Origin: Clostridia bacterium
GTDB lineage: Bacteria > UBA6262 > WVXT01 > JAUXBS01
Length of the DNA: 21,570 nucleotides
Assembly (NCBI GenBank): GCA_030618495.1
Contig: JAUXDE010000016.1
Location: forward strand, 1-21,570
Direction of reading: 5' to 3'
How positions within the stretch are numbered: the stretch's first letter is position 1; every line of letters begins with the position of its first letter. The notes beneath the pieces were generated by a model. That model was not told the DNA's origin. It did not search any database and was given only the letters and a program-made list of their open reading frames with translations. Position numbers and translations under genes: made by a program. Below are positions 3,001 to 21,570 of the stretch, piece by piece.

Positions 3001-3699
3001 AGGCGCGGTATTGGTACTGTATCTTTCATGTCCAAGCGCCATTGCGCTGGTAAAGTCCTCGCATGCCAGGTCCGGATAAAACTTTTCAAACTGATGCGCA
3101 ACGAACATACCCTTATATACGATAACCCTGCTGGATAGACTGGAAATATAGAAATCGTCCTGTCCGAACCCTATATCCCTGACTCTATTCTCAATGCCCC
3201 TCCTGAGAATATAGAACTTCCTCTCAAGCTCATCCCCGTCAACACCCTCATAAGAGATGAAAACCTGCTTCATTAAAGGCATCGTCTTTTCAGCGATTTC
3301 CCCAAGGCAATCCTTGCATACCGGTACATTCCTCCAGCCAAGTATCCTGCCCCCTTCAGTTTCAACCTGGCTGGTCAGTTCCTTTTCTATTTTTTTTATA
3401 TGTCTCTGGTTACGCGGAAGAAACAGGAATCCTATACCGTATTTCCCCTTTTCCCCGGGTGCAAAGCCAAGCTCGCCGGACTTCCTGAGGAAGAAGTTAT
3501 GCGGAATTTGCATCAACATGCCTGTACCGTCACCGGTTTTAAGGTCTCCGCCAACAGCGCCCCTGTGAACAAGGTTCTTCAATATGGTTATACCATCCAA
3601 AACTATCTGGTGCGTTGCTTTACCGTTAATATTAACCACAAATCCAACGCCACAGCTGTCGTGCTCAAAGGATTTATCATATAATCCATAATTCATCAT
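1..3699 (-). CDS. gltB: Glutamate synthase large subunit, 3' end missing at window edge
   Basis: This enzyme makes two glutamates from glutamine and 2-oxoglutarate in cytosolic ammonium assimilation. The frame stays open for 1233 codons to the left edge, so about 250-300 C-terminal residues (the beta-helix GXGXG domain) lie outside. The N-terminal class II glutamine amidotransferase nucleophile is Cys16 in [10 protein letters not shown], preceded by a short propeptide as in the family. The central domain and an FMN barrel follow ([13 protein letters not shown] near residue 983). The 3Fe-4S cysteines sit in [12 protein letters not shown] near residue 1121, followed by [12 protein letters not shown] at 3699 overlaps the upstream stop (ATGA), with AAGGGAG upstream; a second ATG follows at 3696. 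No gltD is seen in the window. Identification is secure; only the end is unknown. Confidence 0.96.
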
Positions 3700-6320
3700 G
3701 GCTTACTCCCTTTTCCTTCTATCTTGAAACAGGTACATCTCTGCTTAACAGAATTTGCATTTAAATATACCGAACTCTTCTTATTAGTTTTTGTAAAATC
3801 AATAACCTTTATAACATCCTCCCATTTCGACATCCCGGGCAGTATTTTATTAAGCCAATTCCCGGAAGCAGTAAAAAACGCTCTGTTCAAATAGTTATTA
3901 TCCTTCGTGGGAAAAATAGTAAGATACAATATATCCAGTTCTACAAGATCGTTGAAGAAATGCGTACCAATGGATACTTCCGGGATAAGCCCTTCACGCA
4001 TTTCGGCTATCTCACATAATACTGAAACATTGCTTATTTCACCGAATTGCACGGGAACACCAAGAGAAGGCGTTGATGTCCCCCAGCGCCCCGGCCCCAT
4101 TAACATGATATTATTATCTTTTGCAGCATTAGTTACCCTTCCTATTAACCGCGCTATTTCATAGCGGTCATTTTCAGGCAGCTTGCTATAAAAAGCAGGC
4201 ACAACGTATATTATAATATCTATTGCCGAATGAATACTGCTCCCCATTATCGGACCTCTTGTCTTGAATATTAAGTTCTCCTTTGCAATCTTACCCGGTT
4301 CTTTCACCCCTCCCATCTCTAACTTTGCCTGATAAGGACGGCATTGAAGCAGGTTTATCTTAAAATCCTTGCTACTACTAAAATTTGTAGTAAACTCAAT
4401 ATCAACAGGATACTCATATGCAGACTGAAGAACTTTTAGCATTTCACGGATGTCTTTTATGAAATCTGTATCGGATAACAATTCGTTAAATGTAATTACC
4501 CAGGGAATAATATTGTTCTTACCCCTTTCACTCAGGCTTCTTTCCATATCCGTATCCCTGCTTGCAAACAGGTCTACTGGCATTTCTGAAATATTTTTAG
4601 CAATATCAACAAAGTACTCGGATACCAATTTGTTCGACTGTAAATCAAGCACATCCGCTTTCCTTTGCGAGTATTTCTTTATCTCATCAAATCCCGATTC
4701 AGGCCTTTTATTAGGGTCATTTATAGCAACAACACGCGTATAATCGTCATCACTGCGGTTCACTGCCCTTGTTCCAAGCCCAAAAACAAGGCGTAGAACC
4801 CCTGATTCCGGATCAATATCCTTGTTCCATACGAACAGATTATATGAGAATCCAACCCCTGCAACCTGTGGAAAAAAATAATTACCATATATTGAACCGG
4901 ACACTCGCTGGATAAGCAAAGCCATCTGCTCATCACGGTCAAGCAATCCTCTCTTATTACGGTAAATAAGAGCATCATTGTTCATGGTGCTGGCATAAAC
5001 TTTACGGACGGCATTAAGGAACTCTTCGAGCCTCTCTTCAGGCGTACCCTGATTGGCGCAGAATATACTCTCATACTTACCTGAAAAAGAATTTCCGTAG
5101 GCATCTTCAAGGAGACTGCTTGAGCGGACTATTATAGGTGCCTGCCCATAATAATTCAGTATTTCCCTGAACTGGTCCTGTATATCGTCAGGAAATGTGC
5201 CGGAAAGCAATCTGTGATGCGCCTCTTCCGCGCCTTCAAGAAAACCCTCGGACCGTCTCTGCTTCCAACGAACCCACCAGCATTTACTCTTAATCAAGTA
5301 TGTATAGAAGACATCAGAACCTATAAAAAAACTGTCATGAGGTTCAAGCCTTTCATCCCAGTACTTTCTTTTTCTTTTAAGAATTGCCCTTGCAATCAGC
5401 ATACCTACTGTTTTGCCTCCTATCAGCCCCGTTCCAATCATGTGTTTCCCTATATCTATAAGGTCTGATAGGTCCATATACTTTTCAGCGAGCTTCAATA
5501 CGCGTTCATCCCTCGTTGCCACCATCCTTAATAATTTCTGACGATATTCTTCCCATTCCTTATTATGTTTCCCGCTCTTTTCGGCAGCGTTCTGTATCTC
5601 CTGCGCTTTTGCAAATATACGGTTCCACATATCCTGCTGGGCAACTGATATGTTAAGCCAGGGGTGAGGCACTCCCCTGAGTATTTCAGATATTACGGTA
5701 CTCCTTGTCACAGGTACTAACTCGTTATTTTTCCAATGATGCAGCATGTACATCGTGTTCGTGTACCTTTTATCTACTTTTAATGGCTGGAGGAAGATAT
5801 CTTTATTATACTTATATACATCTATAATTACCTGCGCTGTATCATGTATGGCATTGGTTGTCTGTGATACATGAAAATTCCTCATAAGTGCAAAATAAGT
5901 AACGGTATCATAATCATAAAGATAAGGGCATGTCAGCATAAAAAAGTTTGCCAGCATTCTATCGCTATACCAGTCTACGGTAAGTTCAGACAGGCAATCG
6001 AAAACATAAAATGCCCCATACCCGTTTTTCTCTATCACAGTAAAAATCTCAGCAAGGAATGTTTCAAATCCGTTTTCAGGATGGAGCTGAAATACTTCCG
6101 CCTTCACTCCCTCAGGTAATACGGACGGATGATCAGCAAACCTGAAATAAATAAGCTTATTCCCTTTTTTATTAGCATCCCGACAAAAGGGATGTACAAA
6201 CCGGATATAATCATTAATGGTATCAACCTGCCAGACTATATTATCTCCCGGCCTTACGCCCTGAATCACTTTATCTAATTCAGCTAATCCTGTACTCATT
6301 AAAGTATAGACTTTTATCAT
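3696..6320 (-). CDS. PEP/pyruvate-binding (PPDK N-domain) protein with N-terminal degenerate KaiC-like domain
   Basis: 874 residues from ATG 6320, chosen because AGGGG lies just upstream and the KaiC-like region starts at once ([13 protein letters not shown]); an in-frame ATG at 6410 would only add an unconserved 30-residue leader. Residues 1 to about 230 look like a RecA/KaiC fold, but the P-loop position reads [15 protein letters not shown] and lacks GK[ST]. From about 298 ([10 protein letters not shown]) to 670 is the ATP-grasp domain of pyruvate phosphate dikinase/PEP synthase, with [20 protein letters not shown] near 397 and LLQCRP near 658. A C-terminal domain has [13 protein letters not shown] near 745. 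The swivelling phosphohistidine domain and the PEP-binding barrel are absent, so it is unlikely to be a full PEP synthase. It may phosphorylate another carrier or act as a regulator; this is inference. It is coupled to gltB by an ATGA overlap. Confidence 0.85.
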
Positions 6321-6414
6321 TTTCAAGCCCCTTATTTTCCCAAAAAAAATGCCCTCGCGCAAAAACATGCACGAAGACATCATTGCCTTGGTAAAACTAC
6401 TTTGTTTCAATATG

Positions 6415-8612: not shown

Positions 8613-9476
8613 TTATTTTATTTCATTATGTACATTTTCCCATATACTCTTTATTTGTTCCGTAACCTGCCCGTCTGAATATTCTATTATGTTCTTCTTG
8701 TTCACCAATGCTTTTATTACTATAGGGTCAAAGGATATTTTTCCCGCAAAGAAAATATTACTATCCCGGCAATATAACTCTATTTCCTCGCTTATTTGTG
8801 TATTCAAGTCATATTTATTAACTACAACAAGTGTCTTTATGTTAAAATGACGGGTTAATTCCACCACCCTTATCATGTCATGCTTACCGGAAAGAGTAGG
8901 TTCGGTAACAATTAAGACAGCATCGGCTCCGGTGATTGAAGAAATAACCGGACATCCTATTCCCGGAGGCCCATCAATTATAATCAGGTTACGTTTTTCC
9001 TTTTCGGCTGTTTCCACCGCAACCTTTCTTACCGTAGCAACCAATTTTCCTGAGTTTTCTTCGGCAATTCCCAGTTTTGCATGAATAAGCGGACCATATT
9101 TTGTTTCTGAATAAAACCATTCTCCGGAATTATTATCCTGCATCTTTATCGCCATTTCCGGGCACACATGAAAACATATACCACAACCTTCGCAGGAAAC
9201 AGGATCTACTGTAAAATCATCTTCGGATATCGCATTAAATCTACATGCAGCGATACAAACTCCACAACGATCGCACTTTGCCCTGTTAATCACTGCGGTT
9301 TTTCCACTTCTAAATTCATTCCTTTTTAAAACAGTAGGATTGAGCAACAGGTATAGATCAGCCGCATCCACATCGCAGTCCGCCATAACTTTATTCTTAG
9401 CCAATTTCGCAAACGCAGCGGAAATTACTGTTTTACCCGTGCCGCCCTTACCGCTTATAACAACAAGTTGTTTCAT
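8613..9476 (-). CDS. MinD-superfamily ATPase with inserted 2[4Fe-4S] ferredoxin domain
   Basis: 287 residues, full length for the COG1149-type family. The deviant Walker A GKGGTGKT is at 9-16, the second switch is DADLYLLL-like at DCDVDAADLY (33-42), and IIDGPPGIGCPV marks Walker B. Between them sits a ferredoxin insert with cysteines 68, 71, 74, 78 and 95, 98, 101, 105. Such proteins couple ATP hydrolysis to Fe-S or metal-cofactor assembly on a partner protein; the substrate is unknown here. ATG 9476 overlaps the stop of the split NifU-like gene (ATGA) and has GAGGG upstream, so ATPase and scaffold were translationally coupled. It is a paralogue of the gene at 11232-12101 and may form a heterodimer with it (inference). 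Confidence 0.9.
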   Translation of the reverse strand: MKQLVVISGKGGTGKTVISAAFAKLAKNKVMADCDVDAADLYLLLNPTVLKRNEFRSGKTAVINRAKCDRCGVCIAACRFNAISEDDFTVDPVSCEGCGICFHVCPEMAIKMQDNNSGEWFYSETKYGPLIHAKLGIAEENSGKLVATVRKVAVETAEKEKRNLIIIDGPPGIGCPVISSITGADAVLIVTEPTLSGKHDMIRVVELTRHFNIKTLVVVNKYDLNTQISEEIELYCRDSNIFFAGKISFDPIVIKALVNKKNIIEYSDGQVTEQIKSIWENVHNEIK

Positions 9477-10135
9477 TTTTCCCTCTTTATCAGGTAATTC
9501 CCAAGCGCCTTATACAACGTAATTACAGCCAGAATAGCGCAATGGTAATTTCCTCCAAGTATTCTTTTTAACCTGTCTATAATGTTTAGTGTGGTGAATC
9601 TAACATATCTTGACATTTGCTGGAAGCATTTTGCTTCAGCGTCAAGGAACGAAGAGTGAGAATACTGTACGTATGTGAACGATAAGTGACGTCGACGATG
9701 AACAAAAGACGACAGCCCTACGGGAAGGGCCCTCTTTGAGCAGCTTCTTCGTCTTTCCTCCTAACCATATTCTCGATATACCTTCGTCGTCTTTCCTTGA
9801 ACCCATCTCAAAGCCTGCCCTTCAAATGTCAAGATATGTTAGATTCACCACACTAACGGTACTATTTTTAGCGCTTCATCTATTTTACGCCCGTTTGCAA
9901 GTTCAGTTACAACCGAACCGCAGGCAAGTATTATACCGCAGCCATTTGAATAAAAAAGTATTTTCGAGATACTATCGTTTTCCGCTATGAAGTATATTTC
10001 CATCTCCTCTCCGCATTGCCCTTTCACTACGGCAGAGCCATCCGGGTCATTCATTCTTCCAAAATTAAGCGGATTGGTTATATGCTTTGTTATATTCTCC
10101 GAAATCTCTGTTTTATTATTATTGTTATTATCCAT
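9473..10135 (-). pseudogene. IscU/NifU-like Fe-S scaffold gene split by a MITE-like insertion
   Basis: From ATG 10135 the frame encodes NPLNFGRMNDPDGSAVVKG, Cys41 in GQCGEEM, and Cys66 and Cys72 in NGCGIILACGS, then runs into the inserted element and stops after PLVW. Beyond the element the missing tail continues: NIIDRLKRILGGNYHCAILA and on to IKREK, ending at TGA 9475-9473. Deleting 9587-9853 plus one TA copy rejoins the frame as KIVPLNIIDRLK and gives 131 residues with the third ligand Cys (residue 110) restored. NifU/IscU N-domain proteins hold nascent Fe-S clusters on three Cys; the usual CGD Asp is Glu here. The truncated protein lacks Cys110 and is probably inactive. Confidence 0.85.
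9587..9855. mobile_element. MITE-like element with 34-base perfect inverted repeats and TA duplication
   Basis: Arms 9586-9619 and 9823-9856 are perfect reverse complements (TTAGTGTGGTGAATCTAAC and onward). Taking the flanking TA (9587-9588 and 9854-9855) as target duplication, the element is 265 bases, 9589-9853. The core of about 200 bases encodes no transposase; it holds a GGGCTGTCG-like hairpin region (CCCTACGGGAAGGGC) and two copies of CGTCTTTCCT (9750-9759, 9788-9797). TA targets and GTG-starting ends suit mobilisation by an IS630/Tc1-type transposase (inference). It splits the NifU-like gene; excision to one TA restores that frame exactly, which strongly supports these boundaries. Confidence 0.85.
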
Positions 10136-10191: not shown

Positions 10192-11229
10192 TCATGTTAC
10201 AGGCTCCTTGTTACTTCTAACAGGCAGTGTTTCCTCGCCTAAATAAGCGCTGAAATTACCCATGCTCATTTTTATGCCTTTATGATTACCGGAAACAAGG
10301 TACTGCCTCTCCAAATCGATACTATTTATATATTTCTCATTCGAACAATAACCTGCTATTAAACTAATCCCTTTTTTTGTTAAAACAAAAACAGGGATTG
10401 CCGCTGAAAGCTGCAGTATTGCTTTTTCCCCTATTATTTTCCTTGTTTCTTCCGATGCGCAACTCCATACAATGTCAGCATATTTTCTTATTTCCTGTAT
10501 TTTTGTTTTAGTCACGCCGGTATTACACACTATCAAAGAAGTAACCGATACATTATATTTCTCTTCTATTTCTTTTATTTTGTCCATGCCCTCCACTGTA
10601 TAACCATTAATAGTTACGGCTATATTCCTGTACCCGCATTCAGCGGCTTTCCTCAAACCTTCATATTGATTTATTTCCGCTGTTTCCGGAAAAACAACAC
10701 AACAACGTTTTTCTCTAAGTCTTTTGATTACTCCGTTAATAGGGGAAGTCAGGAAAAGACCGTTCATCCTGGAACCGATTCCCTGGATTACTTCGGGGCT
10801 GTCCGTAATCACAGTCCCCGCGCCGTCGCAAACGACCACGGCCGAATCAATGATATTTTTATTCATAGCGTACATCATCATCTCCGAGGCTCCGTAAGGG
10901 ATGGCTATATCTTTCCTGGACAGCTCTCTGTTTTCCGTAAAAAAACCATACCTGGATATTTTTTCTTCTATTGTTCCCTTTATCACTTCTCTTAAATTGA
11001 CAGCATTTTTTCCTGCATGCCTTATACTGCCATACAAAATACCGGCGAGGGGACAATACTTAAGGGAAGGATCTGTTACTTTAATAACTTTCCCTTCTGA
11101 TACAACCACGAAAGAAGAAAAGAACCTTGTAACATGCAAATCCTGATGTGTTTTCTTCTCCACTCCGATTTGTTTTAGTATCTTTTTTACGGTCATTTCA
11201 CCTTCCGCCATTATATTCCCGAAAAACAC
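10192..11229 (-). CDS. DUF2099 / methanogenesis-marker-8-like protein
   Basis: About 345 residues from GTG 11229, which follows the upstream stop by two bases; ATG 11196 (MTVKKILKQIG), with GGAAGG four bases upstream, is an equally good start and gives 334 residues. Visible landmarks are KYCPLAGILYG, IPYGASEMMMYAM, VVVCDGAGTVIT, VIQGIGSRMNGLFLTSPI, CCVVFPETAEINQYEGLRKA and GYRNIAVTINGY. I recognise this pattern as DUF2099, first named as a methanogen marker but also found in anaerobic bacteria; its biochemical function is not established to my knowledge. It lies between two ferredoxin-MinD ATPase genes, which suggests that it serves or is served by them. No signal peptide or membrane segment is seen. 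Confidence 0.65.
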   Translation of the reverse strand: MFFGNIMAEGEMTVKKILKQIGVEKKTHQDLHVTRFFSSFVVVSEGKVIKVTDPSLKYCPLAGILYGSIRHAGKNAVNLREVIKGTIEEKISRYGFFTENRELSRKDIAIPYGASEMMMYAMNKNIIDSAVVVCDGAGTVITDSPEVIQGIGSRMNGLFLTSPINGVIKRLREKRCCVVFPETAEINQYEGLRKAAECGYRNIAVTINGYTVEGMDKIKEIEEKYNVSVTSLIVCNTGVTKTKIQEIRKYADIVWSCASEETRKIIGEKAILQLSAAIPVFVLTKKGISLIAGYCSNEKYINSIDLERQYLVSGNHKGIKMSMGNFSAYLGEETLPVRSNKEPVT

Positions 11230-11231
11230 TT

Positions 11232-12101
11232 TTACTTCTTTATTCGCTTAATATCCGCAACTCTCACACTTATTTCATTAAATAATTTTCTAAATTCAGC
11301 CTTATATTCCGGTTGTGATTCAACAATAGAAATTCCTCTTGAGTAACTCTCTGCAATTTTTCTTGAAAATGGCAAAGACATTAAAACAGGGATATCCTCT
11401 TTCTTGCAGTATTTACTAACTTCACCGTCCCCCATATCCGACCGGTTTATTATTACCCCAAAAGGAATTCTTAATATTCTCAACACTTCAACCGCAAGTA
11501 CCAGGTCATTCAATCCAAAAGGGGTAGGTTCTGTTACAAGAATACTGAAATCACTCCCCTTTACAGCTTCAATAACGGGGCAGGATGTTCCCGGCGGAGC
11601 ATCAATAATAACTATTTTTTCTTTTACAATACATTCTTTAACCGCTCTTATTACCGGGGGAGCCATTACTTCTCCGACATTCAACTTCCCATGAATAAAT
11701 TCAATGCCTGAGCCAGCCCCGGGAACCCTTCCTTTTTCTACAACCCCTACCGGCTTATTTATTTCTCTTATTGCCTTCTCGGGACACAGGAGCGTACATC
11801 CGCCGCACCCGTGGCAAAGCTCCGGAAAAACAAGTACTTTTTTGTTTACGACTGCAATTGCATTATAAGCACATATCTCCTGGCATTTCCCGCAATAATT
11901 ACATTTACTCTCATCCACTTCAGGAACGGGGATATATACCGGATGACTCTCCGCCAATTCGGGCTTAAGAAAAATATGGGCATTGGGCTCCTCAACATCA
12001 CAGTCAAGAAACTGAACATTATTATCCAGCGATAATGCCAGGCTGGTTGATATTATGGTTTTCCCGGTACCGCCCTTACCGCTTGCAATCGATATAATCA
12101 T
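11232..12101 (-). CDS. MinD-superfamily ATPase with inserted 2[4Fe-4S] ferredoxin domain (second copy)
   Basis: 289 residues with Walker A GKGGTGKT at 8-15, FLDCDVEEPN at 31-40, IIDAPPGTSCPVIE as Walker B, and a ferredoxin insert with cysteines 67, 70, 73, 77 and 96, 99, 102, 106. It belongs to the same family as 8613-9476 but is clearly divergent, so it is not a recent tandem duplication. Pairs of such ATPases are known next to NifX-like proteins in anaerobes (for example the orange-protein loci of Desulfovibrio), where they form a complex. ATG 12101 overlaps the methyltransferase stop (ATGA), with AGAGGATAA upstream. The likely role is ATP-driven delivery or assembly of an Fe-S or metal centre (inference). 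Confidence 0.9.
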   Translation of the reverse strand: MIISIASGKGGTGKTIISTSLALSLDNNVQFLDCDVEEPNAHIFLKPELAESHPVYIPVPEVDESKCNYCGKCQEICAYNAIAVVNKKVLVFPELCHGCGGCTLLCPEKAIREINKPVGVVEKGRVPGAGSGIEFIHGKLNVGEVMAPPVIRAVKECIVKEKIVIIDAPPGTSCPVIEAVKGSDFSILVTEPTPFGLNDLVLAVEVLRILRIPFGVIINRSDMGDGEVSKYCKKEDIPVLMSLPFSRKIAESYSRGISIVESQPEYKAEFRKLFNEISVRVADIKRIKK

Positions 12102-12743: not shown

Positions 12744-13457
12744 TTATTGTGATTTAACCGTATTTAAACCCGCAAGTGATTTGAAGGTGGATTTTCTTCC
12801 ATCCAATTTCAGCGACCTGGGCTTGCTGAACCTGGCATAATTTTTCGGCTCCTGGTATTGACTCAAGCAATCAAGTCTTCCTATGGACTTTAGTCTTTCA
12901 TATATTAGCATCCAGCCGCAATCCTGCTCTGAATCAACCTCACATTTACCATCCTTTGAACCTCCGCAGGAACCGTTTAAAAGACCTTTAGAACATAGTG
13001 TAAGAGGACATAAACCTCCGGTAATATCTACAATACATTCACCGCATAGAGAACAATATTCAGTAATGAACTCATCGGTAACCGTCTCACCCCCGAATAT
13101 CGTATCACATCCCGGATGAACAATTCCACCGGCAGTAGCATCTATTACTGTATGTATCCCCTGCCCGCAGGCAAGTATTAGAAATGAATCAGCCGATTCT
13201 GTTTCTTTTTTATGGTCAATATTTATCATCTGCTTAGCTAAAGAAAGCTTGCACAGTGATTTTCCACTTTCCGTGGCTGCATATCCCGTCACTTCTACCC
13301 CATTCTTTTCCAACCGGACTTTCATGGCCTTACACTCACTTTCCCCACCCGAACGGCACTTCTCAGCGCAATTACCGCATCCAACCACAAATACTTTTTC
13401 ACCTGTTCTTAAACAACCGAGAATATCTTTCATGTTTTTCTGAATAGTTGCATGCAT
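12744..13457 (-). CDS. metV: MetV-type methylene-THF reductase partner subunit, copy 1
   Basis: 237 residues, Cys-rich. The N-terminus has VVGCGNCAEKCRSGG and GYAATESGKSLCKL; the middle has LACGQGIHTVIDAT and GCDTIFGGETVTDEFI; the C-terminus has CSLCGECI, GGLCPLTLCSKGLLNGSCGG and DGKCEV. This matches the MTHFR C-terminal-domain (zinc/Fe-S) family, called MetV in acetogens, where it binds MetF in methylene-tetrahydrofolate reductase. It is highly similar, by eye roughly three quarters identical, to the copy at 19283-20011. Here MetF does not follow: a methyltransferase and the ATPase module do, with a metF remnant 4 kb further on. AAGGAG lies before ATG 13457. It may still pair with the intact MetF. 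Confidence 0.85.
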   Translation of the reverse strand: MHATIQKNMKDILGCLRTGEKVFVVGCGNCAEKCRSGGESECKAMKVRLEKNGVEVTGYAATESGKSLCKLSLAKQMINIDHKKETESADSFLILACGQGIHTVIDATAGGIVHPGCDTIFGGETVTDEFITEYCSLCGECIVDITGGLCPLTLCSKGLLNGSCGGSKDGKCEVDSEQDCGWMLIYERLKSIGRLDCLSQYQEPKNYARFSKPRSLKLDGRKSTFKSLAGLNTVKSQ

Positions 13458-13517: not shown

Positions 13518-13862
13518 TTAACCACCAAATACCCTACTTAATATTTCTACTACCCGATCTTTGACTTGGACACTTGTCGTGGCTGCAGCAAGCTTTCCAT
13601 TCTTGAAATATACCGTGAATGGTAATCCCATAAAAGATGCGCATTCCGGCAAAGCCTTAATAAAATCTGCCGCAGGAACATCAAACTCCTGATCCCGAAA
13701 CGCAACATGCGGATAATCCTCCTCCAATTCTTTCATAATACCATAAACAGGAATGCACATCGGTCCCATTCTTCCGCAACAAATCATGACATTCTCATTG
13801 TTTTCCAGAACCTTTTTTACATCCTCCTCTGTTTCAAGATGTTCTAATTCTGTGCTTAACAT
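13518..13862 (-). CDS. Thioredoxin-fold protein lacking CXXC, copy 1
   Basis: 114 residues. Thioredoxin-like order is recognisable: a helix (TEEDVKKVLENN), a strand VMICC, a helix, then FMGLPFTVYFKNGK, where Pro81 matches the cis-proline of thioredoxins. The active-site WCGPC position instead reads RMGPMC (31-36), so the CXXC disulphide is absent, while Cys28-Cys29 and Cys36 form an unusual CC...C set shared with the copy at 20110. It may hold a metal or Fe-S cluster, or transfer persulphide (inference). It precedes MetV in both places. AAAAGGAGG stands before ATG 13862. Confidence 0.75.
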   Translation of the reverse strand: MLSTELEHLETEEDVKKVLENNENVMICCGRMGPMCIPVYGIMKELEEDYPHVAFRDQEFDVPAADFIKALPECASFMGLPFTVYFKNGKLAAATTSVQVKDRVVEILSRVFGG

Positions 13863-13920: not shown

Positions 13921-14103
13921 TTATTCTAAACTAATTGCTTCATTTGGACAATCCTCAACACAATTACCGCATCCCGTGCATTTACCACTGTCAACCTCAG
14001 CAATGTCTTCTACGGATATTGCTTCTTCCAAACAGGTATCCTCGCAAAGCCCGCACCCGGTACACATTTTCTTATCAACAACTGCCACTTTATTTACTGG
14101 CAT
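13921..14103 (-). CDS. 2[4Fe-4S] ferredoxin
   Basis: 60 residues with cysteines 14, 17, 20, 24 and 42, 45, 48, 52 in two CxxCxxCxxxC motifs (CTGCGLCEDTC, CTGCGNCVEDC), each followed by EAI; the length and spacing are those of clostridial-type low-potential ferredoxins. ATG 14103 is chosen because GGAAGGAG lies five bases upstream; an earlier in-frame ATG at 14118 falls within that leader. It is the natural soluble electron carrier for the surrounding Fe-S ATPases and for MetF/MetV (inference). Confidence 0.92.
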   Translation of the reverse strand: MPVNKVAVVDKKMCTGCGLCEDTCLEEAISVEDIAEVDSGKCTGCGNCVEDCPNEAISLE

Positions 14104-14148
14104 AATTTCTCCTTCCAACTTTCCATCCCAGGTATTTCCGGTTGGCTG

Positions 14149-14856
14149 CTAAATTGAATATTTCATTCCGGCCCTTACATTCAAGCAATTATTTTTATAC
14201 TCACTAAACAACGCTTTTCTTGCTTTGCTTCCGGTGCAATGACACGGAGCAACCTTCTCTACTTCAAGGGATTTTAGTTGCTCAACAACTTCTTGAATTT
14301 GCTTTTCTGCCTTATCCATAAGATGTAATCCTCCGAGAACAAGTTCAATCGGCAAGGCAAACTCCTCTTTAACTCTTTTAACAATATTGATTATTCCGGG
14401 GTGTGAGCATCCTGTAATAATTGATATTTTGTCTTTCTTAATAACCAGCGATTGCTCACTTAAAGGACTATTATTATACTTGCCGGACATTTCACCTGTT
14501 GTATATACCCCCTCTTTTATTCGTGTGGTCTTCTGAGCCGCAATTACTTCCACCTTATATTGCCCCAGCTTTTTCTTGAATTCATCACTAAATCCCGGGC
14601 AGATAAAAACCTTTACCCGGGGGTTGCAATCCAAAACATACCACAATCCGTTTGTATGGTCCCAATGCTCATGAGAAATAACCACATACTTCAAATCAGC
14701 AACATTCACCTTCTGTTTTTCCATGTTCTTTTTCAAAACACGATAATTGCTGAAAGTATCAAACAGCAAATTATTATCAATTAATATAGATATCCCCCAT
14801 CCAACAAAATATCGCTGTAAAATACTTGATGCTTCTGCAATAATACTTATATCCAT
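14149..14856 (-). CDS. MBL-fold metallohydrolase (COG1237-like)
   Basis: 235 residues with the metallo-beta-lactamase metal motif HEHWDH at 62-67, further ligands His152 in TGCSHPG, LVLGGLHL near 173-180 and His206 in PCHCTG. This set matches the COG1237 group, whose archaeal members include the enzyme that joins a pterin and an aminobenzene ribotide in methanopterin synthesis; the bacterial members' substrates are mostly unknown. ATG 14856 lies two bases after the Mrp stop without its own strong Shine-Dalgarno, so translation is probably coupled. Its position next to folate C1 genes makes a pterin role possible but unproven. Confidence 0.85.
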   Translation of the reverse strand: MDISIIAEASSILQRYFVGWGISILIDNNLLFDTFSNYRVLKKNMEKQKVNVADLKYVVISHEHWDHTNGLWYVLDCNPRVKVFICPGFSDEFKKKLGQYKVEVIAAQKTTRIKEGVYTTGEMSGKYNNSPLSEQSLVIKKDKISIITGCSHPGIINIVKRVKEEFALPIELVLGGLHLMDKAEKQIQEVVEQLKSLEVEKVAPCHCTGSKARKALFSEYKNNCLNVRAGMKYSI

Positions 14857-14857
14857 A

Positions 14858-15685
14858 TCATTTATTATTTTTAGTGCTTGCGCCTATTGAATCACATATA
14901 TTATTAAATACATTTACTGCTTTAGATTCAGGATGTGTTTCAACAAGAAGTTCACCTTTATCTGAACTTTTTACTATTTCAGGATCAAAAGGAATCCCGC
15001 CCAGAAATGGTATTCCCATATCCCTGGCGGTATTCTCTGCGCCTCCTGAAGAGAATACATCTATTTTTTCTCCACATTTTGGGCACAAAAGGGAACTCAT
15101 GTTCTCAACTATTCCAATAATGGGTATTTTAAGCTCTCTTAAGAAATTAATACATTTCCTTGAATCAAGCAGGGCTACTTCCTGCGAAGTTGTGACTACA
15201 ATTGCCCCGTTCAAGTCCTTTATTAGCTGGCATATAGATAAAGGCTCATCCCCTGTTCCGGGAGGAGAATCAATTATTAAATAATCTCTTGCGCCCCAAT
15301 CAACTTCCGCTAAAAACTGTTTTATTGCTACCGCCTTCATGGGCCCGCGCCATATCACCGGTGTATCAATATTACCCAGTACTGCGGCCATTGAAACCGC
15401 AACCAGCCCGGGACTGGCCTCATATGGAACTATTCCATTGGGGCCATTCTGTAGTTTCTTGCCTTCAAACCCAAGCATTCTTGCAACTGAAGGACCGTGA
15501 ATATCAGCATCAAGCAGTCCTACTTTTAATCCCTTCTTACTCAAGCACACCGCTACGTTAACTGAGACAGTGCTCTTTCCCACCCCGCCCTTATTACTCA
15601 AAACCAGTATTTTATTCTGAATTTTATTCATATTACTTTTTAAAAGAATATCCATCTGCTTATTCACTTCTTCCTTGTTAGCCAT
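14858..15685 (-). CDS. Mrp/NBP35-family Fe-S carrier ATPase
   Basis: 275 residues. The deviant Walker A NKGGVGKST is at 31-39, DADIHGPSVARML follows (typical of Mrp), IIDSPPGTGDEPLS is Walker B, and ENMSSLLCPKCGEKIDVF near residues 195-210 carries the CPxC pair that bridges a [4Fe-4S] cluster between monomers. Mrp proteins bind and pass Fe-S clusters to apo-proteins in the cytosol. The N-terminal DUF59 domain of long Mrp forms is absent, as in many anaerobes. ATG 15685 has AGGAG upstream. Neighbouring NifX-like proteins, ferredoxin and ferredoxin-MinD ATPases all point to cluster assembly. Confidence 0.93.
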   Translation of the reverse strand: MANKEEVNKQMDILLKSNMNKIQNKILVLSNKGGVGKSTVSVNVAVCLSKKGLKVGLLDADIHGPSVARMLGFEGKKLQNGPNGIVPYEASPGLVAVSMAAVLGNIDTPVIWRGPMKAVAIKQFLAEVDWGARDYLIIDSPPGTGDEPLSICQLIKDLNGAIVVTTSQEVALLDSRKCINFLRELKIPIIGIVENMSSLLCPKCGEKIDVFSSGGAENTARDMGIPFLGGIPFDPEIVKSSDKGELLVETHPESKAVNVFNNICDSIGASTKNNK

Positions 15686-16552: not shown

Positions 16553-16930
16553 TCAGACTCCTTTCTTCATTCCACTGTGGCTTTCCACGCTTGGTTTTTC
16601 ATCCGCATTCTTTAATTCACCATTCAGGTATCTCATTAGAATATCTTTAATATTTCCTGATAAACCGGTAATAACCTCAATATTTGCAGCCTTAAGCGTC
16701 TGAAAAGCATTTGGACCGCAATTCCCTGTTAAAACCTTCTTAACCCCTTTTTCCGCCATTAACTGCGCTGACTTTATTCCTGCTCCTCCCGAAGCCTCCG
16801 TACTGGAATTTTCAATCGCTTCATTTTTCATGGTTTCCGTATCAACCACAATGAAGTAACTGCACCTTCCAAATCTCGGGTCAAGCATTGATTCAAGCTT
16901 ATCCCCCTGTGAAGTTATGCATATTTTCAT
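16553..16930 (-). CDS. NifX/NafY-type cofactor-binding domain protein (MTH1175-like)
   Basis: 125 residues of the dinitrogenase Fe-Mo cofactor biosynthesis domain: MKICITSQGDKLESMLDPRF, FGRCSYFIVVD, ASGGAGIKSAQLMAEKGVK, VLTGNCGPNAFQTLKAANIE and VITGLSGNIKDIL. These small RNase-H-like proteins bind Fe-S or Mo clusters; many anaerobes that do not fix nitrogen have several. The C-terminal 20 residues (KPSVESHSGMKKGV) are unconserved and overlap the ribosome binding site of the next gene. It is a paralogue of 16946-17326, with GAGAGG before ATG 16930. No nitrogenase structural gene is present, so a general cluster-carrier role is likelier. Confidence 0.9.
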   Translation of the reverse strand: MKICITSQGDKLESMLDPRFGRCSYFIVVDTETMKNEAIENSSTEASGGAGIKSAQLMAEKGVKKVLTGNCGPNAFQTLKAANIEVITGLSGNIKDILMRYLNGELKNADEKPSVESHSGMKKGV

Positions 16931-16945
16931 AATAATCCTCTCTTA

Positions 16946-17326
16946 TCAGTCCTCATGTTCGCATACAGTCTTATCGACCCCGTATCCCTTTCCGTCTCCC
17001 GGGTTGCATGTGCTTGCTCCTCCTTCAAGTGCACCTGACAACAATTGACTTACCACATCATCTATGCTCCCGGATATACCCATAATTGTCTTAATATTAC
17101 TTGACTTGAATAACTCCAGGGCGCGCATTCCCATCCCTCCGGCAACTATAGAATTTACCCCCATTTTGGACAAAAACTCAGGAATATAACCGGGTTGATG
17201 CCCCGGATTATTGATTTCTTCCTTGCTTATTACCTTACCATCATTAATATCAACGATAGTAAAAGACGGACACCTTCCAAAATGAGCGGACACTGAACCT
17301 TCATCCGTAGATATTGCTATTTTCAT
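16946..17326 (-). CDS. NifX/NafY-type cofactor-binding domain protein, paralogue
   Basis: 126 residues from ATG 17326, which has GAGGAGGAG upstream; an in-frame extension to 17419 would overlap the preceding gene and the hairpin. It shows MKIAISTDEGSVSAHFGRC, NPGHQPGYIPEFL, IVAGGMGMRALELFKSSNIK and GISGSIDDVVSQLLSG. The C-terminal tail CNPGDGKGYGVDKTVCEHED, with two Cys and one His, is a common extension in the anaerobe subgroup and could ligate metal. Together with 16553-16930 it probably carries an Fe-S intermediate between the ATPases and a target (inference). Confidence 0.9.
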   Translation of the reverse strand: MKIAISTDEGSVSAHFGRCPSFTIVDINDGKVISKEEINNPGHQPGYIPEFLSKMGVNSIVAGGMGMRALELFKSSNIKTIMGISGSIDDVVSQLLSGALEGGASTCNPGDGKGYGVDKTVCEHED

Positions 17327-17347
17327 TATACTCTCCTCCTCAACGCC

Positions 17348-17383
17348 GGGAAAAGAGCCAGGCATCAGCATGGCTCTTTTCCC
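17348..17383. terminator. Strong intergenic hairpin, possible attenuator or mRNA-processing site
   Basis: GGGAAAAGAGCCA (17348-17360) and TGGCTCTTTTCCC (17371-17383) form a perfect 13-base stem with a 10-base loop between the DUF5320-like gene and the first NifX-like gene. In the minus-strand transcript no U-run follows, so it is not a simple intrinsic terminator for that strand; on the plus strand GTTTTATTT follows. A partial stop or an RNA stabiliser that sets expression of the Gly-rich protein against the downstream genes is plausible. Confidence 0.6.
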
Positions 17384-17390
17384 TGCTGTT

Positions 17391-17747
17391 TTATTTCTCC
17401 TGCTTGGATTCTTTCTCAAGCGTACTGATATGCTCGTTCATCGCTTTGATTTCTTCTTCCATTCCTTTAACCTGATGTTTAAGCGCATCAGCCTCCTGCT
17501 GGGGACTCACATTGACTTCTCCATATGGCATTCCATATCCATAATTAGGATAAGCCATTCCGAAACCCCTACCAAATCCTCTTCCAAATCCTCTGCCGAA
17601 TCCTCCTCTTCCTCTTCCCCGGAAACCTAAACCTCTTCCCGGAATAGAATTTGTGTAACCCGGCACAGAATAACCTGCGCAGTAACCGGCCGCTCTACCG
17701 GTCATCGCTCCCTGTCCTGCAGGACCTGTCCTGTCGCCTCCTGGCAT
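17391..17747 (-). CDS. DUF5320-like Gly/Arg-rich protein with C-terminal coiled coil
   Basis: 118 residues from ATG 17747, picked for the perfect AAAGGAGGTG upstream; the frame extends to 17786 but that would run through the Fur box. It starts MPGGDRTGPAGQGAMTGRA and includes YCAGYSVPGY, then a stretch of GRGFGRGFGRGFG repeats (residues about 45-68) and a Tyr/Pro patch, ending in a charged helix from about 80 (QQEADALKHQVKGMEEEIKA) that should form a coiled coil. Such proteins are common beside NifX-like genes in anaerobes, with no established function that I know of. It is the first gene after the Fur box at 17776. Confidence 0.8.
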   Translation of the reverse strand: MPGGDRTGPAGQGAMTGRAAGYCAGYSVPGYTNSIPGRGLGFRGRGRGGFGRGFGRGFGRGFGMAYPNYGYGMPYGEVNVSPQQEADALKHQVKGMEEEIKAMNEHISTLEKESKQEK

Positions 17748-18404: not shown

Positions 18405-19286
18405 TTATCCAATTTCAGCCTGTTTTAAAATCTCAGGAACAATATCATCCCAGCCTAAAGACATTATGTGAACACCCTGGCACATGGGTTTTATCTCGCG
18501 AATAATACGAGCTGAGATTTCTACAGCTTTCTTTTTGCGGTCATCCTTCTTCGTTTCTTCCATTTCTTTGATTATCCCATCAGGAACAAAAACTCCCGCT
18601 ACATTTTCGTTCATGTACTTTGCCATTCCCGCGGATTTTAATACAACAATTCCTGCCAATACAGGAACTTTAAAGTTTGCCACCTTATTCATAAATATCT
18701 CATAATTCTTGGGCTCGTAAATAGCCTGTGACTGAAAAAACTTCGCTCCAGCATCTATCTTTTTCTCCATTTTTATTATCTGGAGTTCTACCGGTTCAAA
18801 CTCGGGAGTTACCACTGCACCACATAATAATTCCGGCTTGCCTTCGAGTTCATGCCCTGCTAAATCATACCCTTCATTCAATTTTGTCACTGCTTTAACC
18901 AACTGAACAGAATCAAGGTCAAATACGGGTTTTGATTCCGCATGATCTCCCAGTATTATATGGTCTCCTGTTATACATAATATGTTCTTAATCCCCAGCC
19001 TCCATGCGCTGATAATATCAGATTGCAAAGCTAACCTGTTACGGTCCCTGCAGGTTAACTGGAATACCGGCTCAATCCCTTCATCAGCAAGCAGGTGACA
19101 CACCGCCATGGAACCCAGCCTCATAACCGAACTTTGATTATCAGTAACATTTACCGCGCATACTTTATCTTTTAAATATTTTTTAGCTTCTTCCATCACC
19201 TTTCCGGTATCTGTTCCTTTTGGAGGAGCTATTTCACCTGTAACAATAAATTCTCCAGCGTTTAACGCTTCTTTCAACTTATTCAT
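18405..19286 (-). CDS. metF: Methylenetetrahydrofolate reductase
   Basis: 293 residues, the usual length for the MetF TIM barrel. It binds FAD and reduces 5,10-methylene-THF to 5-methyl-THF, the last folate step of the methyl branch of the Wood-Ljungdahl pathway and of methionine supply. Visible family marks are FIVTGEIAPPKGTD at the start, AVNVTDNQSSVMRLGS, QLTCRDRNRLALQSD, LCITGDHIILGDH, GAKFFQSQAIYEP and MCQGVHIMSLGWDDIVPEIL at the end. ATG 19286 overlaps the MetV stop (ATGA), with GGAGGAAGG upstream, so the two subunits are made together. A broken relative of its 3' third is at 8280-8527. No MetF-fused NADH module or RnfC2 gene is nearby, so the electron donor may be ferredoxin (inference). 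Confidence 0.93.
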   Translation of the reverse strand: MNKLKEALNAGEFIVTGEIAPPKGTDTGKVMEEAKKYLKDKVCAVNVTDNQSSVMRLGSMAVCHLLADEGIEPVFQLTCRDRNRLALQSDIISAWRLGIKNILCITGDHIILGDHAESKPVFDLDSVQLVKAVTKLNEGYDLAGHELEGKPELLCGAVVTPEFEPVELQIIKMEKKIDAGAKFFQSQAIYEPKNYEIFMNKVANFKVPVLAGIVVLKSAGMAKYMNENVAGVFVPDGIIKEMEETKKDDRKKKAVEISARIIREIKPMCQGVHIMSLGWDDIVPEILKQAEIG

Positions 19287-20011
19287 TTTCCTTCCTCCCG
19301 TATGGATGATATTATTCTTTTACCCGCCAGTGATTGAAACGTTGCCTTCCCACCATCTAGTTTTATATTACGCGGCCTGCTCCATTTAGCGTAATTTTTA
19401 GGCTCCCTGTACTGCTTTAAAGAATCGAGCTTACCAATACTTTTCAATCTGTCATAAATTAACTGCCATCCGCAGTCCTGTTCCTTATCAACTTCGCATT
19501 TACCATCCTTGGAACCGCCGCAGGGCCCATTCAAAAGACTCTTGGAACATAGTGTAACAGGACAGAGCCCCCCGGTATATTCCACAATACATTCCCCGCA
19601 TAATGAACAATATTCGGTAATAAAATCATCTGTTACAGTTTCACCACCGAAAATAGTATCACACCCGGCATGAATTAATTTACTTCCAGTTGCGTCCATT
19701 ACCGTATGTATCCCCTGTCCACAAGCTAAGACCAGGAAAGAATCTGCTACCCCTGTTTCTTTTTTATGTTTAACATTAAGCACTTCCTTTGTAAGAGCTA
19801 ATTTACAGAGACTTTTTCCGCTTTCCGTGGCTGCATATCCAGTAACTTTTACACCTTTCTCTTCTAAACGGACTTTCATCTCACTACATTCTTTTTCACC
19901 GCCTGAACGGCATTTTTCCGCGCAATTCCCGCATCCTATAACAAAAACTTTTTCTCCATCCTTCAAATGCTCAATAATTTCATCTAAAGGTTTCTGAATT
20001 GTTGCATGCAT
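19283..20011 (-). CDS. metV: MetV-type methylene-THF reductase partner subunit, copy 2
   Basis: 242 residues with the same Cys layout as the copy at 12744: VIGCGNCAEKCRSGG, GYAATESGKSLCKL, LACGQGIHTVMDAT, GCDTIFGGETVTDDFI, CSLCGECIVEYTGG and LCSKSLLNGPCGGSKDGKCE. It is directly coupled to metF, the classic metV-metF order of acetogens, so this is the functional pair. Compared with copy 1 it changes conservative positions and has a longer C-terminal tail (KRIISSIREEGK). A good AAAGGAGG-type site precedes ATG 20011. The Cys-rich C-terminus probably holds zinc and the N-terminus may hold an Fe-S cluster (family knowledge plus inference). Confidence 0.88.
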   Translation of the reverse strand: MHATIQKPLDEIIEHLKDGEKVFVIGCGNCAEKCRSGGEKECSEMKVRLEEKGVKVTGYAATESGKSLCKLALTKEVLNVKHKKETGVADSFLVLACGQGIHTVMDATGSKLIHAGCDTIFGGETVTDDFITEYCSLCGECIVEYTGGLCPVTLCSKSLLNGPCGGSKDGKCEVDKEQDCGWQLIYDRLKSIGKLDSLKQYREPKNYAKWSRPRNIKLDGGKATFQSLAGKRIISSIREEGK

Positions 20012-20109: not shown

Positions 20110-20460
20110 TTATGATGAATTACCGAACTCCTTATCCAATATTTCCATTACCTGGGCGCTGCTTTGAATACTGGTCGTGGCTGCCACGACTTTTCCATTC
20201 CTGAAATATACCGTAAAAGGTAACCCCATAAAAGATGCGCATTCCGTTAAAGTCTTAATAAATTCCGCTGCGGGGATATCAAAATCCTGATCCCGGAACA
20301 CAACATTCGGATATTTATCTTCCAGTTCTTCCATAATGCCGTAAACAGGAATACACATCGGCCCCATTCTTCCGCAACAAACCATGACATTCTCATTGTT
20401 TTCAATTACTTTCTTAACATCTTCTTCTGTTTCAAGATGTTTTAAATTTGTGTCCAGCAT
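20110..20460 (-). CDS. Thioredoxin-fold protein lacking CXXC, copy 2
   Basis: 116 residues, roughly three quarters identical to the copy at 13518. Cys28-Cys29 and the block GRMGPMCIPVYGIM (30-43) are unchanged, as is GLPFTVYF with the cis-proline at 81; Cys74 in ECASFMG is also kept. Differences gather in surface helices and the C-terminal helix. Conservation of this unusual CC...MGPMC set in both copies, each directly before a MetV gene, argues for a selected function linked to MetV. GAAAGGAG lies before ATG 20460; the upstream insertion sequence may have replaced the original promoter. Confidence 0.75.
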   Translation of the reverse strand: MLDTNLKHLETEEDVKKVIENNENVMVCCGRMGPMCIPVYGIMEELEDKYPNVVFRDQDFDIPAAEFIKTLTECASFMGLPFTVYFRNGKVVAATTSIQSSAQVMEILDKEFGNSS

Positions 20461-20507: not shown

Positions 20508-21570
20508 GTAACAGTTCAGGACTTTCTGGAGAAATCGGCTCATAAATTAAGAGAGGGTTTAAGGTGTACTTAGTCACTTTACCTCATTTCCCCCTGTTCC
20601 CAAATTATACCTCTTTCTTTTCTCCAATGTCAATCTTTTTAGTTCTGCTCTGCGCTTTAAGATTTCCTCCTTCCTGCCGGCATATACATCAGCCGGGCTC
20701 ACATTGTTAAGACTACTGTGCGGGGTATGGTTGTATTCCCATACCGCTTTCTTCAGAGCTTTCTGCAATTCATCCGGGGAACTGTAAACTATCAAGTTCA
20801 CGGTTTTGCTCTTAGTCGTCTTGTTGAACCTTTCTACCTTACCCTGTGTCTGAGGATGATACGGCCTGCCGAACCTGTGTTTTATCCCATGCACCCAGAG
20901 ATATTCAGATAATGTATCCCCCCTAAACCCGGGACCGTTGTCTGAAAGCAAAACCGGTGGAGGTTTAAGACTGTGCCCGAGCCTCTTTGCTTCTTCTATG
21001 GCTGATTCTATCGCATCACTGATGCTATACCCTGTTTCATCAAGCTTCAGTTCATCCGTGAGCACATACCGCGAATAATCATCTATTACCGGTATATACT
21101 TGTAATAGCCCCAGCTACGAATAAACATATTGGTGCCATCGCATTGCCACATCTCGTCGGACCTTGTTGTTTTCCTCTTGTATTCCTTTGCCGCCGGTAT
21201 TTCTTTCAGCGGCCGGGGCTCTATAAGGTTATACTTCTTCAGCAATCGGTAAACGGTCTTCTCCCCGACGGAGAAGCCCTTGTTGTCGGTTATATGCACC
21301 GCAATCAGCCGCGGCGTGAGTTCCGGGTGGTCCTTGGATACCTTGAGGATTGTCTCTTCTTCTTCAGGCAGTACCCTGTTCCACACTTTCCCCGGCGCCG
21401 TTGACCTTTTCTTCAAGCCAGATATTCCTTCCCTCTTATACGTCCCCCGCCAACCGTAATACGTTGACTCAGGTATACCAAGGGACACGAGAACGCTTCG
21501 TCTATTTTCGCCGAAAGCCTCTACTTTTTCTATGAGGTCCTTTATTTCTTTCGCCTTCATATGTATGTGC
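20508..21570 (-). mobile_element. Insertion sequence, IS481/IS3-like, cut by the right window edge
   Basis: An intact DDE transposase gene occupies most of it. The left boundary is tentative: TGTAACAGTTCAGG at 20508-20521 begins TG, as ends of this group do, and lies 66 bases outside the transposase stop. The opposite end would lie beyond 21570, so neither inverted repeats nor a target duplication can be checked. Confidence 0.5.
20574..21560 (-). CDS. DDE transposase, IS481/IS3-like
   Basis: 328 residues, complete. An N-terminal helix-turn-helix (GIPESTYYGWRGTYKREGIS, 29-48) and a second DNA-binding part (GFSVGEKTVYRLLKKYNLIE) precede the integrase core. The catalytic triad is Asp141 (WQCDGTN), Asp207 (LSDNGPGF) and Glu243 (QGKVERFN), with 35 residues between the second Asp and the Glu as in DD(35)E enzymes, followed by WEYNHTPHSSLNNVSPAD. 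A single frame is used, which is more like IS481 than the two-frame IS3 type. Nothing is broken, so it could be active. It is not the source of the remnants at 6565-7004, whose sequences differ. Confidence 0.92.
   Translation of the reverse strand: MKAKEIKDLIEKVEAFGENRRSVLVSLGIPESTYYGWRGTYKREGISGLKKRSTAPGKVWNRVLPEEEETILKVSKDHPELTPRLIAVHITDNKGFSVGEKTVYRLLKKYNLIEPRPLKEIPAAKEYKRKTTRSDEMWQCDGTNMFIRSWGYYKYIPVIDDYSRYVLTDELKLDETGYSISDAIESAIEEAKRLGHSLKPPPVLLSDNGPGFRGDTLSEYLWVHGIKHRFGRPYHPQTQGKVERFNKTTKSKTVNLIVYSSPDELQKALKKAVWEYNHTPHSSLNNVSPADVYAGRKEEILKRRAELKRLTLEKRKRYNLGTGGNEVK

Follow-up and report, generated by a model that had tools for sequence, protein, structure and literature searches.

The 114-aa protein encoded at 13518..13862 (-) of the window, by which we mean the whole stretch of 21,570 nucleotides analysed here, belongs to a family of bacteria and archaea in which the thioredoxin fold has been kept, the active site has been rebuilt and a thioredoxin reductase accompanies most of the members. 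We hold, with moderate confidence, that this thioredoxin-like (Trx-like) family represents a parallel thioredoxin system, which exists beside the canonical one and in which the cysteine pair has been relocated. Thioredoxins are usually defined by the CXXC motif, and the Trx-like family tests how far thiol chemistry can move within the thioredoxin fold. In addition, the accompanying reductase clade has apparently exchanged NADPH for NADH, and one lineage of the family is accompanied by an iron-sulfur assembly module.

The thioredoxin fold and the rebuilt active site

Two copies of the protein were identified in the window, copy 1 of 114 aa from its reading frame, alignment and structural model, and copy 2 of 116 aa at 20110..20460 (-) from its reading frame and alignment. 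They share 75% identity and both contain CCGRMGPMC; the two reading frames which the earlier note had described, each upstream of a MetV gene, are indeed present. The codons of this block in copy 1 (residues 28-36) are located at 13755..13781 (-), as seen in the sequence and from conservation in the homologues. The source genome has exactly two copies, both within the window.

The AlphaFold model of the Trx-like protein, which was built from an alignment of 45 homologues, had a mean pLDDT of 93.7 and a pTM of 0.88, and the order of the DSSP elements was H12-21, E24-30, H37-46, E53-59, two short helices, E82-87, E90-96 and H101-112. Foldseek and VIA-align matched the model to thioredoxins along the whole chain, the best VIA Z being 15.3 (2.0 A, 104 residues), and hhalign of the family profile against 19 canonical thioredoxins from the genomes of the study gave a probability of 95% and E=3.9e-8. 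The confident model, the structural matches and the profile match together make the protein a true thioredoxin-fold relative, as had been proposed in the earlier note. No Pfam or NCBIfam family claims it: copy 1 had no match in scans of both collections, copy 2 scored 12.9-14.1 bits with thioredoxin models that have cut-offs of 97-138 (12.9 vs 96.8 for TIGR01068), and the best values among the 45 members were E=5.6e-4 for PF00085 and E=1.3e-6 for an NCBIfam thioredoxin model. The family is undescribed in the literature searched, which consisted of open-licence papers only, and no paper of that literature printed CCGRMGPMC together with thioredoxin.

The Trx-like protein resembles TrxA (PF00085, TIGR01068) in its fold near full length, in the GLPF cis-proline segment of the C-terminal half and in being likewise paired with a thioredoxin reductase. 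P81, the proline of the predicted cis-Pro loop, is found in 71/71 homologues, and the fourth strand starts at residue 82. Unlike TrxA, the protein lacks the CXXC, the loop Trp and the buried Asp, it carries a CC pair at the strand end, and the Lys invariant in the 19 canonical thioredoxins aligns with D57, which is invariant in the family. The canonical invariant Asp of the preceding strand corresponds to I27 or C28. Because the buried Asp is absent and D57 takes the place of the Lys, the chemistry is not transferable from thioredoxin.

None of the 71 distinct homologues has a CXXC at the active site, where the CCGRMGPMC block is found instead. C36 is conserved in 71/71, C29 in 70/71 and C28 in 68/71 of them, G30, R31, M32, G33, M35, P38 and V39 are conserved in all, and P34 is kept in 69/71; outside the block, D57, F60, D61, P81, F82, A94, T95, S97 and Q99 are also present in 71/71. 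Such near-invariance shows that the block is not due to chance. C29 is replaced once, by Ala, and C28 by Ala, Ser or Ile. The natural variants, namely CAGRMGPMC in L077 (= L030), SCGRMGPMC in L090 (= L037), ICGRMGPMC in L123 and ACGRMGPMC in L128, are useful for telling which Cys matters.

The alignments leave the register of C36 relative to CXXC ambiguous. The ungapped phmmer register places G33 at Cys32 and C36 at Cys35 of WCGPC, and hhalign places C36 at the first Cys (Cys32) and M35 at Trp31, with one HMM alignment also placing C36 at Cys32. In any register, C36 is just ahead of the helix H37-46, and C28/C29 are at the end of the preceding strand. The unusual cysteine block of the earlier note, with a conserved CC pair at the strand end, therefore stands; its statement that the first catalytic Cys has become Met cannot be made, since one register has Gly33 at that position and the other C36. 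Trp28 of Escherichia coli thioredoxin is located beside the active-site disulfide (PMC3646739), and C29 occupies the place of this Trp in the ungapped register. With C29 there and C36 before the helix, we infer that C29-C36 is the favoured redox pair. A different reading is that C36 alone acts as the nucleophile or as a persulfide/thiol carrier of the monothiol type, resolved by the reductase, and that the CC pair has a structural or protective function. C36 is the sole Cys conserved in every homologue, and both hhalign and the one HMM alignment place it at the nucleophile position, but C29 and C28 are conserved above the expectation for a dispensable pair, and we judge this reading, in both its parts, unlikely.

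Thioredoxin reductases encoded beside the Trx-like gene

In 47/69 of the Trx-like homologues outside the window, an FAD thioredoxin reductase is encoded on the same strand at a distance of up to 500 bp, mostly with gaps of 5-160 bp, and this reductase was adjacent in all 21 of the 21 Bacteroidota loci surveyed. The reductase gene follows the Trx-like gene in bacteria and precedes it in ANME-1, one planctomycete and one spirochaete. The adjacent partners are low-molecular-weight thioredoxin reductases of about 305-325 aa. As most relatives are paired with a reductase, and one which keeps its CxxC, the Trx-like protein is probably a specialised redox protein, and the non-redox job that the earlier note suggested is disfavoured. 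An adjacent reductase is absent in the window, in ANME-2 and at the loci L007, L016, L022 and L046. A different kind of partner, which by eye looked like a CoA-disulfide reductase (L007, 453 aa), was considered and rejected, since the neighbours turned out to be thioredoxin reductases. At L006 and L008, both from ANME-1 MAGs, partial reductase matches, covering N- and C-terminal parts with the middle missing, were found upstream of the Trx-like gene, perhaps the remains of a reductase that is decaying or has been deleted.

In a tree of 63 reductases constructed by a quick method, 38 bacterial partners were on one side of a branch with an SH-aLRT of 99. The other five partners were outside this bacterial clade, four of them in an ANME-1/planctomycete group and the spirochaete partner elsewhere. 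Since these five do not join the clade of 38, the pairing was established, or re-established, on more than one occasion. The CxxC and the second nucleotide-binding glycine motif are kept in all of the 43 partners analysed. In the bacterial partner clade, the CxxC and the second GGGxxA were each found in 38/38 and the FAD motif in 36/38; HRRxxxR was found in 0/38 and H[EQ]FxxxQ in 38/38. HRRxxxR is kept in 17/20 of the non-adjacent reductase paralogues. The partners are similar to the TIGR01292/AhpF reductases, with FAD and nucleotide-binding motifs and CATC intact and with the TIGR01292 and AhpF models as best matches, but the bacterial clade falls just under the TIGR01292 cut-off (328.6 and 330.8 vs 343.45) and has H[EQ]FxxxQ instead of HRRxxxR. 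It has been reported that HRRxxxR coordinates NADPH and that the Thermoplasma acidophilum reductase without this motif is NADH-dependent (PMC6262447). Judging from the missing motif and this precedent, the bacterial partner clade likely uses NADH.

A separate canonical system is present in most of the genomes examined: a canonical thioredoxin was found in 17/18 of them, and 11/18 have, in addition to the adjacent reductase, another that is not adjacent. In the window genome, the only good thioredoxin reductase homologue, which is of the NADPH type with CATC and HRRxxxR, is encoded on another contig, and a WCGPC thioredoxin is encoded on a third contig.

In the parallel system that we propose, a flavin thioredoxin reductase whose CxxC is intact, usually a dedicated paralogue, would move electrons from the nicotinamide to the Trx-like protein, the putative electron donor for the bacterial partner clade being NADH. 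C36, just before helix 2, would most likely bridge C29 at the strand end, with C28 as an auxiliary cysteine, and the reduced Trx-like protein would then reduce a specialised target. In the window genome, the reduction would come from the sole good reductase homologue, encoded elsewhere. Two observations count against this proposal: L030/L077 (CAGRMGPMC) has no C29 and yet a reductase adjoins, and some loci, including the window, are without an adjacent reductase. The two-gene pair is found in single-contig Bacteroidota genomes, which makes the system directly testable. The clostridial TrxA3/TrxB3 (GCEPC, grd operon; PMC10880999) is a described case of an atypical thioredoxin that has a reductase of its own in addition to the canonical system, and the two systems are alike in this arrangement; TrxA3, however, keeps the CXXC and serves glycine reductase, whereas the Trx-like family has no CXXC.

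Neighbouring genes and the candidate target

A MetV-like gene (12744..13457 (-), PF12225, E=4e-30) follows copy 1 of the Trx-like gene. Copy 2 of MetV at 19283..20011 (-) is by sequence comparison the orthologue (91%) of the MetV of a sister species, and the MetF (methylenetetrahydrofolate reductase) gene is located at 18405..19286 (-) (PF02219). Both Trx-like copies precede a MetV gene of the same strand by 60-98 bp, and the earlier note had linked them to MetV, suggesting that the Trx-like protein may be a MetV chaperone or a third subunit of methylenetetrahydrofolate reductase. DNA comparison showed that both genes of the Trx-MetV pair were duplicated, with the coding regions alignable and the spacers mostly not. 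At the DNA level the two pairs are most simply explained by one old duplication: the active-site block is exact in both copies as had been noted, but the copies are not independent, and the position of both before MetV counts as a single observation. MetV or MetF was found near the Trx-like gene in 0/69 homologues outside the window genome, with flanks inspected up to 8 kb at 43 loci and about 1.5 kb at the rest; the earlier note had itself held that homologues far from MetV would speak against the link. The MetV genes identified in other genomes have no Trx-like neighbour either. In the sister species (G001, 76% complete), the Trx-like protein was not found, and acsB/cdhC is directly followed by metV, 91% identical to copy 2 of the window, and metF. 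The adjacency of the Trx-like and MetV genes is a local accident of the window genome, and a role of the protein as an accessory of MetV is highly improbable.

An rve-type transposase gene at 20574-21560 (-), directly upstream of copy 2, is a possible agent of the Trx-MetV duplication. The window genome has three MetV genes (12744-13457, 19283-20011 and G000:C60), and the first MetV gene of the window has no MetF beside it.

Copy 1 of the Trx-like gene has further neighbours. A small 4Fe-4S dicluster ferredoxin of 65 aa is encoded just upstream at 13921..14118 (-), followed by a metallo-beta-lactamase-fold protein at 14149..14856 (-), which at L004 and L007 likewise occurs close to the Trx-like gene, and a Mrp/NUBPL P-loop ATPase at 14858..15685 (-), of which the best NCBIfam model is MrpORP, below cut-off. 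Two MinD-type ATPases with a ferredoxin insert (8613..9476 (-) and 11232..12101 (-)), a NifU N-terminal-like protein (9845..10135 (-), PF01592) and two Nitro_FeMo-Co proteins of the NifX/ORP type (16553..16930 (-) and 16946..17419 (-)) complete this module, and these, as well as the Mrp ATPase, are also found near homologues of the Trx-like gene. A DUF5320 protein is also encoded in this neighbourhood. A DUF2099 gene (10192-11229 (-); PF09872, 'Uncharacterized protein conserved in archaea', E=1e-78) lies beside the MinD-ferredoxin ATPase genes, and the relatives of its host genome form a very small group. A 904-aa protein encoded at 3696-6410 (-) has a PPDK_N domain and an N-terminal region without assigned type.

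Searches by tblastn with the window proteins showed module members within 8 kb of the Trx-like gene at 8/20 loci of the window's lineage, covering Planctomycetota, ANME-1, Spirochaetes, Dehalococcoidia and Thermoplasmata, i.e., five groups in two domains. At the seven clearest loci, the nearest member is 27-3200 bp from the Trx-like gene. No module member was detected by tblastn at the other 23 Trx-like loci, and as a background 1/49 canonical Trx/TrxR loci, which were shorter, had a module match. The recurring neighbourhood of the window's lineage is therefore the MinD-ferredoxin/Mrp/NifX/NifU module and not MetV. The specialised target of the proposed parallel system would, in this lineage, likely be a component of this iron-sulfur module.

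The Mrp component has a characterised relative, MrpORP, by which Fe-S clusters are passed on to ORP proteins (PMC6345978). The module in the window is similar to the MrpORP/ORP system of Desulfovibrio in combining a Mrp ATPase with Nitro_FeMo-Co (Di-Nase) type proteins, but here these are clustered with MinD-type ATPases bearing ferredoxin domains, and the Mrp protein of the window, under the MrpORP cut-off, is without a fused Di-Nase domain. The literature passages on the Desulfovibrio ORP system named no thioredoxin-like member. Another possible reading of the Trx-like protein is that Cu(I) or an Fe-S cluster, the latter possibly as a bridge between the two halves of a dimer, is bound by C28/C29/C36, perhaps together with M32 and M35, and that the protein delivers its load to the neighbouring NifX/Mrp-type proteins, with the reductase keeping the ligand thiols reduced. 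The Mrp/MinD-Fd/NifX/NifU neighbours and the cluster transfer by MrpORP are in its favour, as is the invariance or near-invariance of C29, M32, M35 and C36; some thioredoxins, such as the plant TRXo, are reported to bind Fe-S clusters (PMC6210436). On the other hand, in the larger bacterial lineage the reductase alone adjoins the Trx-like gene, without the module, and three homologues lack C28 and one lacks C29, so that a fixed set of three Cys ligands is not universal. We regard the binding and the delivery alike as unlikely. The narrower version, that C29/C36 and the invariant Met pair would carry Cu(I) or an Fe-S cluster, with a dedicated NADH-linked reductase holding the site in the reduced state, and serve NifX/ORP-type maturation in the window's lineage, is distinctly unlikely.

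Occurrence of the family

The GTDB-wide scan, based on two N-terminal peptide patterns and biased toward close relatives, detected 43 homologues with 53-76% identity. The archaeal homologues were from ANME-1, other Methanosarcinales-labelled archaea, a Methanocellaceae MAG and Thermoplasmata, and the bacterial ones from Planctomycetota, Spirochaetes, Dehalococcoidia, Fermentibacteria, Bacteroidota, Chlorobiota, Neomarinimicrobiota, Cloacimonadota, a deltaproteobacterial MAG and two actinomycete-labelled MAGs. The Trx-like family is mostly found in anaerobic microbes, and the plasmid collection had no match to the protein. Profile searches found full-length members in 9/392 genomes of the ANME-1 phylum, 20/395 of Bacteroidota and 3/350 of Chloroflexota. 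Family members scored at least 182 bits and everything else at most 32 bits; with this gap and so few positive genomes, the family is sharply bounded and patchy. A domain fusion in a spirochaete (L076, a 337-aa ORF) was considered and rejected: an upstream ORF, which we take to be YggS-like, reads into the Trx-like gene in one frame in a single MAG.
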